Of a stretch of 64,000 nt of DNA, positions 2-61,996 are shown piece by piece (position 1 is the first letter of the stretch; the number at the start of each line of letters is the position of its first letter). The notes below the pieces were generated by a model, which searched no databases, was not told the origin of the DNA, and saw only the letters and a list, made by a program, of their open reading frames with translations. The stretch lies in contig NZ_CP032674.1 of NCBI RefSeq assembly GCF_021730305.1, positions 3,953,001 through 4,017,000 of the forward strand. Reading direction: 5' to 3'. The position numbers were made by a program, and so were the translations under genes. The DNA comes from Xanthobacter sp. YC-JY1 (lineage in GTDB: Bacteria > Pseudomonadota > Alphaproteobacteria > Rhizobiales > Xanthobacteraceae).

Positions 2-1186
2 TATCCCTACGCCCTCGTCTCGCGGCACGGCGTGCCGCACGTGGCCGGCTTCTACATCCTGCATGAGGGCCTGATCGGCGTCCTCGGCGACAACGGCCTG
101 CAGGAAGTCACCTACGCCAAGATGGACAAGGAGAAGCCCCTCGCCTTCTCCGCCACCGGCGGCTGGCTCGGCATCACCGACAAGTACTGGGCGGCGACCG
201 TCATTCCCGATCAGAGCGTGAAGGTGGACGCCAAGTTCTCCTCGGCCATGATCAACGGCCAGCAGACCTTCCAGACCGACTATCTCGCCCAGCCGCTCAC
301 GGTGGAGCCGGGCAGCAAGATCACCTCCTCCGGCCAGCTCTTCGCCGGCGCCAAGGTGGTGCAGGTGGTGGACGGCTATGCCGAGACCTACAAGATCGAC
401 CGCTTCGACCGGCTGATCGACTGGGGCTGGTTCTATTTCATCACCAAGCCGCTGTTCCTCGTCATCGACTGGATCTATCGCGTCGTCGGCAATTTCGGCG
501 TCGCCATCCTGGTGGTGACGGTGCTGCTGAAGGGCATCTTCTTCCCGCTGGCCAACAAGTCCTACGCCTCCATGGCGAAGATGAAGGCGGTGCAGCCGGA
601 ACTCACCTCCATCCGCGAGCGCTACGCCGACGACAAGGTGAAGCAGCAACAGGCGATGATGGAGCTGTACAAGAAGGAGAAGATCAATCCGGTGGCGGGG
701 TGCCTGCCCATCCTGATCCAGATCCCGGTGTTCTTCGCCCTCTACAAGGTGCTGTTCGTCACCATCGAGATGCGGCATGCGCCGTTCTTCGGCTGGATCC
801 GCGACCTCTCGGCGCCCGACCCGACCACCGTGTTCAACCTGTTCGGGCTGATCCCCTGGGATCCGGGCTCCGTGCCGGTCATCGGCAGCTATCTCCTGCT
901 CGGCGCTTGGCCGCTCATCATGGGCGTGACCATGTGGGTGCAGATGAAGCTGAACCCGGCCCCGCCGGACCCGACCCAGCAGATGATCTTCAACTGGATG
1001 CCCATCATCTTCACCTTCATGCTGGCGCACTTCGCCGCCGGCCTGGTGATCTACTGGGCCTGGAACAACACGCTCTCCGTCACCCAGCAGGCCGTCATCA
1101 TGCGGCGCAACGGGGTGAAGATCGAGCTGTGGGACAACATCAAGGGGGCCCTCGGCCTCGGCAAGAAACAGGCGGCGAAGGGATAG
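2..1186 (+). CDS. yidC: Membrane protein insertase YidC (5' truncated by window edge)
   Basis: YidC inserts and folds inner-membrane proteins, alone or with Sec. The reading frame is already open at base 2, so only the C-terminal part (about 394 residues) is present: the end of the periplasmic P1 domain, then the conserved five-helix insertase core. The core includes the [20 protein letters not shown] segment before the cytoplasmic coiled coil, the [20 protein letters not shown] segment, and a late helix around [12 protein letters not shown]. The C-terminal tail is short and basic ([10 protein letters not shown]). A strong terminator follows, so this is the last gene of its unit. Family identity is clear from these motifs. 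Confidence 0.97.
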
Positions 1187-17776: not shown

Positions 17777-17842
17777 GCTCGGCCTCGTCCCGGGCGCCCC
17801 GCCTCTTGCAGTTCTGCGGCCGGCATGAGTAAATAACAGACA

Positions 17843-17920
17843 CGGCCTGGGGTGCCGCGCATCATGCGCGGCTGAGATCACACCCATCGAACCTGTCTGG
17901 ATCATGCCAGCGTAGGGAGA
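17843..17920 (+). promoter_or_regulatory. TPP riboswitch (thi box)
   Basis: The conserved thi-box segments appear in order: ggggtgcc, ctgagat, accc, gaacctg, and the final atgccagcgtaggga. A variable hairpin (gcgcatcatgcgc) sits between the first two. The terminal agggaga lies 5-6 bases before the thiO ATG at 17926, so the riboswitch 3' end includes the thiO ribosome site. This suggests control of translation initiation by TPP. Confidence 0.93.
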
Positions 17921-17925
17921 TGCCG

Positions 17926-19131
17926 ATGAGCGAGAGCTTGTCGCAGTTTACATCCGCACCTTCATCGCAAGCCGGCTCTGCACCGGCGGGCAAGGCCAAA
18001 CCACGTGTTGCCATCGTCGGCGGCGGCGTCATCGGCCTCGCCCTCGCCTGGCGCCTCGCCGACGCCGGCTGTCCGGTGGATTTGTTCGAGGCCGGCGAGA
18101 CCGGAGAAGGCGCGAGCCGCGCCGCCGCCGGCATGCTCGCCGCCTGCGCCGAGGCCGAGCCCGGCGAGGAGGGCCTGCTCGCCCTCAATCGCGCCAGCCA
18201 GACCCTCTGGCCCGCCTTCGCGGCGGAGCTGGAGCGCGCCTCCGGTGAGGCGGTGGACCTGCGCACCGAGGGCACCATCACCATCGCCCTCACGGCGGAC
18301 GACCTCGCGAAGCTGCGCCACCTTTACGCCTTCCAGCAGGGGCTGGGCCTGCCCGTGCAGTGGCTCACCGCCGCCGAGGTGCGCCGGCGCGAGCCCTATC
18401 TCGCGCCCCGCCTCGCCGGCGGCGTGCTGAGCCCCGAGGATCATCAGGTGGACAACCGCAAGGTTGCCGCCGCGCTGAAGATCGCCGCGCTCAAGGCCGG
18501 CGCGACGATCCACCAGAACACGCCCGTCAGCCGCGTGGAGACGACCGGCGGCCGCGCCACCGGCATCGTCACCGGCGAGACGCACCATGCCGCCGACGTG
18601 GTGGTGCTCGCGGCCGGGGCGTGGAGCCGGGGCGTGGACATCACCCCGGCGACGCCGCTGCCGGTGCGCCCCATCAAGGGGCAGATGCTGTCCCTGCGCA
18701 TGGACCCGGCCGCGCCGATCCTTTCCCACGTCCTGTGGGCGCCTGGCTCCTACCTCGTGCCGCGGCGCGACGGCCGGCTCATCATCGGCGCCACCACCGA
18801 GGAGAAGGGGTTCGACACCGACCTCACAGCCGGCGGCCAGCTCGCTTTGCTCACCAATGCGTGGCGGGCACTGCCGACGCTGGAGGAGCTGAGCATCGTT
18901 GAGCAATGGGTCGGCTTCCGCCCCGGCAGCCGGGACGACGCCCCCATCCTCGGCCCGAGCCCGGAGGTGGACGGCCTCGTCTACGCCACCGGCCATCACC
19001 GCAACGGCATCCTCCTGCTGCCGGTGACCACGCAGATGATCGCCGACCACATCCTGGGCGGCAAGATCGCGGACGTAGCCCTGCCCTTCGGCGCGGAGCG
19101 CTTCGGCCCGCCGCGCGCGGCGGCGGAGTGA
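17926..19131 (+). CDS. thiO: Glycine oxidase ThiO
   Basis: This FAD-dependent oxidase converts glycine to iminoglycine (dehydroglycine) for thiazole synthesis, replacing ThiH in aerobes. The 401-residue protein has the Rossmann FAD motif VAIVGGGVIGLALAWRLAD near residue 30 and the DAO-type C-terminal motif GLVYATGHHRNGILLLP. I chose the ATG at 17926 because an ATG at 17920 overlaps the agggaga ribosome site. thiS overlaps its 3' end by 4 bp. Confidence 0.94.
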   Translation: MSESLSQFTSAPSSQAGSAPAGKAKPRVAIVGGGVIGLALAWRLADAGCPVDLFEAGETGEGASRAAAGMLAACAEAEPGEEGLLALNRASQTLWPAFAAELERASGEAVDLRTEGTITIALTADDLAKLRHLYAFQQGLGLPVQWLTAAEVRRREPYLAPRLAGGVLSPEDHQVDNRKVAAALKIAALKAGATIHQNTPVSRVETTGGRATGIVTGETHHAADVVVLAAGAWSRGVDITPATPLPVRPIKGQMLSLRMDPAAPILSHVLWAPGSYLVPRRDGRLIIGATTEEKGFDTDLTAGGQLALLTNAWRALPTLEELSIVEQWVGFRPGSRDDAPILGPSPEVDGLVYATGHHRNGILLLPVTTQMIADHILGGKIADVALPFGAERFGPPRAAAE

Positions 19132-27735: not shown

Positions 27736-27812
27736 GTCCCGGTAGCTCAGCAGGATAGAGCAGCGGTTTCCTAAACCGCAGGTCAGGGGTTCGAATCCCT
27801 TCCGGGACACCA
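27736..27812 (+). tRNA. tRNA-Arg (anticodon CCU)
   Basis: A complete cloverleaf with acceptor arms gtcccgg / ccgggac, anticodon loop ttCCTaa between gcggt and accgc, T-arm ggggttcgaatcccc-like, and an encoded CCA end. It reads AGG codons. Downstream DNA holds an autotransporter remnant. Confidence 0.95.
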
Positions 27813-45196: not shown

Positions 45197-45271
45197 GCGG
45201 GCGTAGTTCAGTGGTAGAACGACAGCTTCCCAAGCTGTATGTCGTGGGTTCGATTCCCATCGCCCGCTCCA
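45197..45271 (+). tRNA. tRNA-Gly (anticodon CCC)
   Basis: Acceptor arms gcgggcg / cgcccgc, anticodon loop ttCCCaa within acagc / gctgt, and a ggttcgattcc T-arm with encoded CCA. The integrase of the adjacent island starts its 3' end 84 bp away, so this gene is the probable integration target. Confidence 0.95.
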
Positions 45272-53318: not shown

Positions 53319-53394
<76 letters not shown>

Positions 53395-59079: not shown

Positions 59080-60642
<1,563 letters not shown>

Positions 60643-60714
60643 GGGAGCGGTCCTTCTCGCATCCGGCGCGGCCCGTCTGGGGGCATGTTGTCCGGATCAT
60701 AAGCCGAAAACAGG

Positions 60715-60786
60715 CGCCGGGTCTTCAGGCCCGGCGGCGGCGTTTCCCCTGAGTGCCCAGGCGCAAGCCCGGCCGGCCCTCAGGGG
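60715..60786 (-). promoter_or_regulatory. Putative leucine-responsive transcription attenuator of leuA
   Basis: On the minus strand, after the leader-peptide Leu run, a hairpin with 8-bp arms cccctgag / ctcagggg (60746-60753, 60779-60786) has the leader stop codon within its first arm. A second 7-bp stem, CGCCGGG / CCCGGCG (60715-60736), is then followed by CCTGTTTTC, a terminator-like tail. The arrangement matches amino-acid attenuators. Exact alternative pairings need folding. Confidence 0.6.
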
Positions 60787-60884
60787 CGGCTAAGGAGAAG
60801 AAGCGCGCGCAGAATAAGAGCGTTGCCCGGAACCTTGATGGTCCGGGGCTGAGAGGCGGCGGTCTTGGTCGTGCGGGACGACAC
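60780..60884 (-). CDS. leuA leader peptide (Leu-rich, 34 residues)
   Basis: A GTG-started frame ends KVPGNALILRALLLLSRP and carries six Leu codons near its end (CTT, CTG, then CTT CTT CTC CTT), with four in a row directly before AGC CGC CCC TGA. CTT is uncommon in this GC-rich genome, which would make ribosome progress sensitive to charged tRNA-Leu. It lies upstream of leuA on the same strand. The GTG start is only one candidate and its ribosome site is weak; the Leu-run end is the firmer part. Confidence 0.65.
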   Translation of the reverse strand: MSSRTTKTAASQPRTIKVPGNALILRALLLLSRP

Positions 60885-60997
60885 GGGGCGCTCTGCTCTT
60901 CGCTCACGAGTACGGGAAGGTGCTCATAGCCGAATGGTACGGCTGAAGCAAGGGGGCGCGGCGTGAGGTGGGATGCCTTCCGCCGGCATCCCCTCCC

Positions 60998-61996
60998 CTA
61001 CTGCACCGGCAGGATGCGCTTTCCGGTGCGGGCCGCCTCGTCATAGATGCGGGTGTCACCGGGCTTCAGGGAATAGCAGGTCTGGGCGATCACCGGCGTT
61101 CCGGCGGCGAGCAACTGGCCCACGGTGGCGAAGCGGTAGCCCTTGGCGCGCAGTGCTGGGATGAGGATCTTCAGCGCCTCGGCCGTGTGCTTGCCGCGGC
61201 CGTTGGCGTGCATGAGCACGATGGAGCCGGGCTTGATGCCGCGGAGCATGTCGTCTGCCATGCCCTTGGCGCCGATGAAGGCGGGATCGCCGGAATCCAC
61301 GTCCCACTGGATGGCGAGGTGGCCGGTGTCGTTCACATAGTTCAGGGATTCGGCGCTGCACGAGCCATAGGGAAAGCGGAACAGGCTGATGGCCTGCGGC
61401 TTGGGCAGCATGCAGCCCTTCGCCTCTGCCTGCTTGCGGCCGAGGGCGAGGCCGATGTCGGCATCGTCCACCTGCCGGCGCATGGCTTCCCCCGTCTTCA
61501 CGGTGAGATTGGCATGGGACCAGGTATGGTTACCCATCTCGAAGCCGGGATCGGCGGTGAGCTGCCCGCCGCGCTCGGGATGGCTCACCATCCACTTGCC
61601 GCCGGCGAAGAAGGTGGCGGCAACGCCCTCGGACCTCAGATAATCGACGAGCGCGCCGTCATAGCCCGATGTCTCGCTGGAGGCCTCGCAGAGGTCGAAG
61701 GTGAGTGCCACCATCTTCACCCCCGGCGGCAGGTCCACTCGGCGGATGGAGCCGCGCAGCGCCGCCGGCACCGGCGCCGAGGCGGGCACCGAGATATCCG
61801 GCAGTTGGCCCGGCCCGCCCGTGTGCGGCCGCACGATCTCCTCGCCCTGCTTCGCCGCCAGCGCCTGGGGCGGATAGCAGGCCGGGCCGGCGGCGAGCGC
61901 AGGCGCGCAGAGGCCGGCGAGCAGGAGCGCGGCAAAAAGCGGACGGAACGGCAGTCGGATCGAGGGCAAGGCGTCACCGGCACAAAGCGTCGCCAT
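60998..61996 (-). CDS. Polysaccharide deacetylase family protein (NodB homology)
   Basis: This 332-residue exported protein has a signal peptide (PFRPLFAALLLAGLCAPALA, then AG-PACYPP) and a NodB-type domain: VALTFDLCEASS (TFDxxx motif with the metal Asp), NHTWSHANL (metal His residues), and the late GSIVLMHANGRGKH motif with the catalytic His. It probably removes acetyl groups from a cell-envelope polysaccharide or peptidoglycan; the substrate is unknown. The upstream open frame is non-coding; the ATG is at 61996. Confidence 0.88.
   Translation of the reverse strand: MATLCAGDALPSIRLPFRPLFAALLLAGLCAPALAAGPACYPPQALAAKQGEEIVRPHTGGPGQLPDISVPASAPVPAALRGSIRRVDLPPGVKMVALTFDLCEASSETSGYDGALVDYLRSEGVAATFFAGGKWMVSHPERGGQLTADPGFEMGNHTWSHANLTVKTGEAMRRQVDDADIGLALGRKQAEAKGCMLPKPQAISLFRFPYGSCSAESLNYVNDTGHLAIQWDVDSGDPAFIGAKGMADDMLRGIKPGSIVLMHANGRGKHTAEALKILIPALRAKGYRFATVGQLLAAGTPVIAQTCYSLKPGDTRIYDEAARTGKRILPVQ

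Follow-up and report, generated by a model that had tools for sequence, protein, structure and literature searches.

What is a short reading frame rich in Leu codons doing upstream of leuA in Xanthobacter sp. YC-JY1? The locus lies on the minus strand of a 64,000-nt stretch of genomic DNA, here called the window, and a reading made from the letters alone (the sequence-only reading) had taken the frame for the leader peptide of a ribosome-mediated attenuator. We find that the element is real, widespread, and functional-looking; the earlier regulatory idea was right in kind but probably erred in the terminator step. Its features are listed below in window positions. The name leuA comes from the sequence-only reading and agrees with a LeuA-like family match, which falls below the family cut-off.

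60923..60951, minus strand: candidate sigma-70-like promoter, TTGCTT-17 nt-TATGAG, upstream of the leader (sequence)
60780..60884, minus strand: leader peptide ORF of 34 codons, from GTG to UGA (sequence, ORF list)
60792..60803, minus strand: control codons CUU CUU CUC CUU (Leu) (sequence)
60795..60802, minus strand: 5′ strand of pairing P1, UUCUUCUC, inside the Leu codons and extended by GCG at 60804-60806 (minimum-free-energy fold, complementarity statistics)
60651..60658, minus strand: 3′ strand of P1, GAGAAGGA, the leuA Shine-Dalgarno region, extended by CGC at 60649-60647 (fold)
60746..60786, minus strand: hairpin P2, CCCCUGAG...CUCAGGGG, with a 3-bp GCC/GGC and an upper stem, holding the leader stop (fold, covariation)
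60715..60736, minus strand: hairpin P3, CGCCGGG..CCCGGCG, followed by the weak U tract CCTGTTTTCG (terminator scan, genus comparison)
60661..60697, minus strand: P4, AUCCGG (60697-60692) with CCGGAU (60666-60661) (fold and genus sequences, by eye)
59080..60642, minus strand: leuA, 2-isopropylmalate synthase, 520 aa, ATG at 60642 (ORF list, homology)

The sequence and the ORF list agree on the leader as it had been described: 34 codons running from GTG at 60884 to UGA at 60782-60780, with the translation MSSRTTKTAASQPRTIKVPGNALILRALLLLSRP and six Leu codons, four of them consecutive (CTT CTT CTC CTT, 60803-60792). The Leu run had been placed immediately before the stop; it is indeed near the end, but three codons (AGC CGC CCC) intervene, and the 3′ end of the frame reads CUU CUU CUC CUU AGC CGC CCC UGA. 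As proposed, the stop sits inside the first arm of an 8-bp hairpin, where the 5′ arm CCCCTGAG (CCCCUGAG, 60786-60779) contains the UGA and its partner is the 3′ arm CTCAGGGG (CUCAGGGG, 60753-60746). The second GC-rich stem that had been noted before leuA is likewise present, at 60736-60715, with TTTT in the tract that follows. Since CTT makes up 7.7% of the 1,281 Leu codons in 34 CDS-like ORFs of the window, its use in the Leu run is unusual. The folding energy of the leader region, on the other hand, is unexceptional (z = −0.86 for 258 nt and +0.46 for 126 nt). We dropped unusual fold stability as evidence because the region is ordinary for its composition; stability alone makes no case, and the case against chance is conservation. 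A pattern search with the exact arms of P2, which are palindromic and were reported on both strands, returned no second genomic copy.

The Leu run and the stem had been expected to be conserved in relatives, and they are. In genus and family relatives, the Leu run and P2 upstream of leuA are almost unchanged. Our covariance model R1, which spans the Leu run and P2 and was built from 44 sequences, places the element on the leuA strand at 74 of 80 LeuA loci; these are the best 80 of 589 relatives by protein similarity and so lean toward window-like LeuA. As 33 of the 44 training sequences come from the 80 loci (the other 11 come from close relatives), 33 of the 74 matches are partly there by construction, while the other 41 are not. 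The six loci lacking the element are L063, L086, L101, L109, L066, and L079, the last two having nearly no upstream sequence. Among close genomes, 55 of 61 carry it. Within the 56 genomes whose best LeuA match has at least 64% identity, only one lacks it (G039, a 1.4-Mb genome with LeuA at 66%). The other close genomes without it have no LeuA match (G033), only a match at E 9e-5 (G028), or best LeuA matches at 31-35% identity (G045, G050, and G059).

In a draw of genomes from the class, 127 of 385 match R1 at E 0.01; the proportion is 117 of 186 among those with LeuA at E 1e-150 or better, and 10 of the 127 matching genomes have no LeuA at that level. We examined 110 of the 127 (30 + 80 loci), and all 110 matches, the window's own included, precede a LeuA homologue, which has at least 57% identity in 108 cases and only 28-30% in two. 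Outside the 110, at least three of the weakest class matches (G256, G278, and G414) lie on another contig than LeuA and are probably false. A draw from the phylum gave 53 matches in 299 genomes, all labelled as the same class or nearer; the class make-up of the other 246 is not given. Under the strict R1 search, 69 of the 186 genomes with LeuA at E 1e-150 or better show no element, a count to be read with the stricter filters used for searches over more than 40 genomes, which miss some elements. Twenty of the 69 were inspected. Three match on the leuA strand at E 0.01 with filters off (L240, L243, and L255), two can be seen by eye to have the Leu run and arms that match P2 (L238 and L254), and 15 have no Leu run or P2 by model or eye (L236, L237, L239, L241, L242, and ten others of L236-L255). 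In one family of the window's order (f24), all 13 genomes listed from the phylum draw are without the element (e.g., G484, G488, and G502). We guess that this family may be Rhizobiaceae. One of its members, G059, also lacks this type of LeuA, its best match being at 31% identity. As judged from these searches, the element is widespread in Alphaproteobacteria and not universal, and the gaps are real.

For quantitative comparison, we assembled 203 loci (98 of 110 LeuA loci and 105 of 110 class loci), dereplicated to 165 at 70% identity. The LeuA loci left out had too little upstream sequence (L066 and L079), were near duplicates (L002 and L031), were missed by the simple finder (L063, L069, L095, L101, and L109, of which R1 finds L069 and L095), or had no element or a far or uncertain leuA start (L086, L089, and L105). 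The class loci left out were the window itself (L112), two with LeuA identity below 40% (L211 and L221), and two with starts 464 and 477 nt away (L116 and L120). The leuA starts were set by rule as the nearest in-frame ATG, and some are probably wrong.

All 203 loci have a Leu codon at the last position of the Leu run (third before the final sense codon), and 192 have one at the third-last position, two codons further up; in model-found loci, these counts are biased toward Leu because R1 contains the Leu run. An in-frame start lies at least 9 codons upstream in 201 loci, the exceptions (L030 and L097) being near contig ends. In 191 of the 203 loci (TGA in 175, TAG in 12, and TAA in 4), including 93 of the 98 that were found through LeuA and not through the model, the stop codon keeps its position within P2. 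In Roseomonas-type leaders (L082, L084, and L087), it is 6 nt further downstream. The final sense codon is CCC in 170 loci and CUC in 28, so proline is not essential. We also considered, from the sequence alone, a +1 frameshift at CUU-A that would carry the ribosome past the stop and rejected it as a shared feature: where a leader has CUA-A or CUA-G, the slip would land on a stop codon.

Compensatory changes support P2. In a MAFFT alignment of the 44 sequences, 8 of 12 pairs change on both sides, with 31 two-sided cells versus 9.4 in shuffled alignments (0/500 as high). In a 101-row alignment, which was fitted to the P2 structure and includes one antisense row (L123), 9 of 12 pairs do so (1/500 shuffles as high), with 73 cells versus 23 (0/500). 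Changes of the stop codon itself are mirrored on the other arm, e.g., CCCCUAGG with CUUAGGGG. Comparison across the loci thus demonstrates the leader, its in-frame Leu codons, the stop within P2, and the P2 pairing. As a separate observation, 184 of the 203 loci have CTTA at −8 to −5 relative to P2 (window 60794-60791, minus strand), also those in which P1 is more distant from P2 on the upstream side.

Such constancy could also be read without the peptide: P2 and P1 together would bind a protein, or leucine itself in the manner of a riboswitch, the peptide being secondary. P2 is highly conserved in sequence, as is the CTTA before it (184/203), and for the actinobacterial LEU element, discussed below, control by a protein has been suggested. 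In Rhodobacterales-like loci, moreover, the P2 interior pairs with sequence just downstream in a possible pseudoknot with covarying strands (CGGTGCG/CGCACCG and CGGGTGC/GCACCCG; e.g., L083, L093, L094, and L098). Over the 165 loci, this pairing exceeds permuted pairs (z = 4.6; 0/3,000 as high, versus 179/3,000 for the reversed control). By group, with groups assigned from the P2 sequence, the permuted values as high were 20/3,000 for Rhodobacterales-like loci (n = 22), 775/3,000 for Hyphomicrobiales-like loci (n = 53), and 200/3,000 for the others (n = 90), so a pseudoknot common to all lineages is unsupported outside the first group. Against a peptide-independent binding site, the interior of P2 differs between orders, and the stop is kept in place through changes among TGA, TAG, and TAA, with the Leu codons in frame, neither of which a peptide-free device needs. 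We consider this explanation very improbable.

The sequence-only reading had proposed classical attenuation, in which the position of the ribosome on the Leu codons would pick either an antiterminator or P3 as an intrinsic terminator. Part of that proposal stands, namely, a Leu leader with a regulatory layout and a conserved Leu run and hairpin. P3 with its U tract is indeed the sole terminator-like site in 60600-61100 (mean of 0.3 in shuffles), and P3 is kept in the Xanthobacter-genus loci inspected. The TTTT after it, however, is confined among these loci to the window species and the near-identical L002, the others having TTT or fewer, and only two genus loci pass the terminator rule (the window and L014). 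Terminator-like sites number 10 in 203 loci, somewhat above the 2-5 found in shuffles; nearly all other loci have none. The mutually exclusive antiterminator and terminator pairings that were to be sought by folding did not appear in conserved form, as neither folding nor sequence comparison by eye revealed a conserved antiterminator. The conserved partner of the Leu run is instead the ribosome-binding region of leuA, which points to control of translation initiation. With a terminator-like site in only 10 of 203 loci, we reject a terminator/antiterminator pair as the conserved principle, and classical attenuation as the account of this locus is unlikely; a weak terminator function of P3 in the window species is possible. 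In the fold of the window, the UUUU mostly pairs upstream and AGCCG before P2 pairs with CGGCU after P3, which suggests that P3 and P4 may be spacer helices inside P1.

P1, the pairing of the Leu codons with the leuA initiation region, appears in the minimum-free-energy fold of the window as UUCUUCUC (60802-60795) with the Shine-Dalgarno stretch GAGAAGGA (60658-60651). Other lineages have their own complements, in which both strands change together (AGATTCTTCGA/TCGAAGAATCT, CTACTAAGC/GCTTAGTAG, TCCTAAGCC/GGCTTAGGA, and TTCTGCTT/AAGCAGAA). To compare loci, we determined the longest Watson-Crick helix that the 22 nt preceding P2 can form with the 60 nt preceding leuA. This helix averages 6.17 bp for a locus's own strands versus 5.11 bp for permuted partners (165 loci; z = 14.8; 0/3,000 as high) and versus 5.20 bp when partners are permuted within GC classes (z = 12.9; 0/3,000). 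On the leuA side the signal is highest between −30 and −10, on the leader side over the Leu codons, and it is found in each group separately (Rhodobacterales-like, n = 22; Hyphomicrobiales-like, n = 53; others, n = 90; 0/3,000 each). The permutation assumes independent loci, which they are not, and these z values are therefore overstated. The controls also beat permutation (reversed strand, z = 2.2, 53/3,000; a segment further upstream, z = 3.8, 0/3,000; leuA codons 2-21, z = 3.1, 4/3,000), indicating that part of the signal reflects composition or relatedness. Shared descent alone, however, does not make the two strands complementary, and by this comparison the complementarity of P1 is demonstrated.

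The choice among synonymous codons gives a second view of P1. In the eight codons before the last sense codon, CUU accounts for 409 of 725 Leu codons (56%). When Leu codons were replaced with random synonyms, the mean pairing fell from 6.27 to 5.34 bp under window usage and to 5.65 bp under leader usage (0/200 as high in each case), and shuffling a leader's own Leu codons among their places lowered it to 5.88 bp (0/300). Because synonymous swaps leave the peptide unchanged, selection acts on the RNA, and sequence comparison thereby shows the Leu codons to be chosen for P1. The CTT codons, whose use in a GC-rich genome had been offered as a strengthening sign of attenuation, are unusual as claimed, but P1 pairing accounts for them at least partly. 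In many lineages (L126, L147, L150, and L217, among others), the run reads CTT CGA CTT, with Arg between Leu codons; complements such as TCGAAGGA near the leuA start suggest that RNA pairing dictates the CGA.

P1 is not equally long or equally placed everywhere. An uninterrupted Watson-Crick helix of 6 bp is missing in 58 of 165 loci, and in the 107 loci with a helix of at least 6 bp, it overlaps a Shine-Dalgarno-like tetramer in 43, so direct masking of the Shine-Dalgarno site is not universal. A leader on which ribosomes stall might act mainly through Rho-dependent termination or decay of untranslated leuA mRNA; the frequent placement of P1 upstream of the Shine-Dalgarno site fits this, as does the lack of a conserved intrinsic terminator. 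The sequence gives it no direct support, however, and we hold such an output to be improbable.

Folding with the Leu codons blocked predicts how the leuA site would respond. In the window, the unpaired probability of leuA −18 to −5 rises from 0.19 to 0.58 in the folding model; it stays at 0.19 with an equal block further upstream and reaches 0.54 with a ribosome at the stop. A stop-parked ribosome would thus also open the window site, and discrimination would rest on dwell time. Across the 165 loci, the modelled mean accessibility increases from 0.418 to 0.506, versus 0.430 with the upstream control block and 0.455 with a ribosome at the stop. A gain above 0.1 is predicted for 62 loci when the Leu codons are blocked versus 24 with the upstream control block (Wilcoxon P = 2.5e-6), 38 with the ribosome placed at the stop, and 24 when the linkers are shuffled. 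The predicted gain is 0.1 or less in 103 of the 165 loci, and there is none in 56.

These results favor a leucine-responsive leader that controls leuA translation, a reading to which we assign a probability of roughly 0.68. With leucine plentiful, the ribosome would complete the leader at the stop embedded in P2 and depart, and P2 would refold; the freed Leu codons would pair with the leuA initiation region as P1, lowering leuA translation. P2 would keep the two strands of P1 near each other, and P4 would draw the Shine-Dalgarno region toward P2. When leucyl-tRNA is short, the ribosome would stall on the CUU and CUC codons and cover the 5′ strand of P1, leaving the Shine-Dalgarno region of leuA accessible. 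We infer that the leader is transcribed, that ribosomes stall on it, that it responds to leucine, and that control is translational rather than Rho dependent.

Where transcription would begin was approached through promoter patterns. Of 18 hand-chosen near loci, 14 have a TTGNNN-16..19-TATNNN pattern 160-168 nt upstream of P2; across all loci, the pattern is found in 38 of 203 versus a mean of 15.5 and a maximum of 21 in shuffled sequences. A stricter promoter scan of the region did not pick up TTGCTT-17-TATGAG. A promoter within the leader would be compatible with the sequence. Between P3 and leuA, the segment CGGCTTATGATCCGG (window 60706-60692, minus strand) is kept in Xanthobacter-genus loci, as TTATCATCCGG in L003 and L011. 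In the fold of the window, its CGGCU is the partner of AGCCG and its AUCCGG is a strand of P4; the segment could also hold the −10 box of another promoter, one located downstream of the leader.

Several known systems share parts of this design. In translational attenuation of ermC and cat, a drug is the trigger and a separate hairpin masks the Shine-Dalgarno site; here too a ribosome stalled on the leader would expose the Shine-Dalgarno site of the gene that follows, but the control codons themselves are the masking strand. With the gammaproteobacterial leu operon leader, grouped with other ribosome-mediated transcription attenuators, our element shares a biosynthetic target preceded by a peptide with Leu codons in tandem; unlike that leader, it has no Rfam match and no conserved terminator. 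No Rfam 15 family matches it, and the family described for the gammaproteobacterial leader, RF00512 (PMC3766115), gave no match at its gathering score in the whole window and none at E values up to 5 in 60600-60960.

The closest described system is the LEU element, predicted to precede leuA in Actinobacteria (Seliverstov et al. 2005, PMC1262725). Its leader ORF has a run of Leu codons that pairs with the Shine-Dalgarno box of leuA as a base stem, and above this stem lies a pseudoknot or an alternative hairpin (PMC1262725). Mutations in the Streptomyces leuA leader are described there as having effects inconsistent with classical attenuation, and, partly from these data, the authors favored a regulatory protein (PMC1262725). 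The position upstream of leuA, the leader ORF with its Leu run, and the base stem with the Shine-Dalgarno box are all as here, and the LEU pseudoknot has a possible counterpart in the Rhodobacterales-like loci, as compared by description only; the phylum is another one. The LeuA type is probably different as well: the window's LeuA scores 123 bits against TIGR00970, for which the cut-off is 697 bits. Actinobacterial LeuA, we assume, belongs to the TIGR00970 type. An RNA-seq study of Corynebacterium glutamicum describes a leuA leader peptide with four consecutive Leu codons as a putative attenuator (PMC4046766), a Leu-run peptide upstream of leuA as in the window and, again, in another phylum. 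The excerpted text of a Sinorhizobium meliloti small-protein study does not name leuA (PMC10117765). In the open-access literature searched, we recognised no report of an alphaproteobacterial leuA leader; Vitreschak et al. 2004 (FEMS Microbiol Lett) could hold a prior prediction.

A broader proposition, for which we see the odds as about even, is that Alphaproteobacteria have in common a leucine sensor, ancient and uncatalogued, whose control codons would serve both as sensor of leucyl-tRNA and as antisense mask of the leuA ribosome-binding region. Synonymous choice and order would be tuned per lineage, and the same principle would occur in Actinobacteria by descent or convergence. If so, one shared leucine control element, absent from current catalogues, would serve many Alphaproteobacteria (the named loci include Bradyrhizobium, Methylobacterium, Rhodopseudomonas, and Rhodobacterales), and it would be a clear-cut example of codons being selected for RNA pairing and not for tRNA supply. 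These bacteria would offer tractable hosts for probing the proposed logic of the actinobacterial LEU element, where leader mutants are ambiguous. The practical yield would be a covariance model with which to annotate genomes and a simple switch that makes translation respond to leucine.

Some minor observations concern individual loci. G023 has two close LeuA matches (C129 and C103, the latter being L030) with a copy of the element beside each, possibly an assembly duplicate. L063 lies on a contig labelled Patescibacteria and carries an alphaproteobacterial-type LeuA at 70% identity, and its label is probably a binning error; upstream of this leuA are CCTCCTCCTTACC and a GAGGAGG near the start, and P2 was not found. 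Elsewhere in the window, there are tRNA genes at 27736-27809 (plus strand), 45197-45268 (plus strand), and 53322-53394 (minus strand), and a TPP riboswitch at 17838-17937 (plus strand) matches RF00059 with 61.9 bits versus a gathering score of 54.3.
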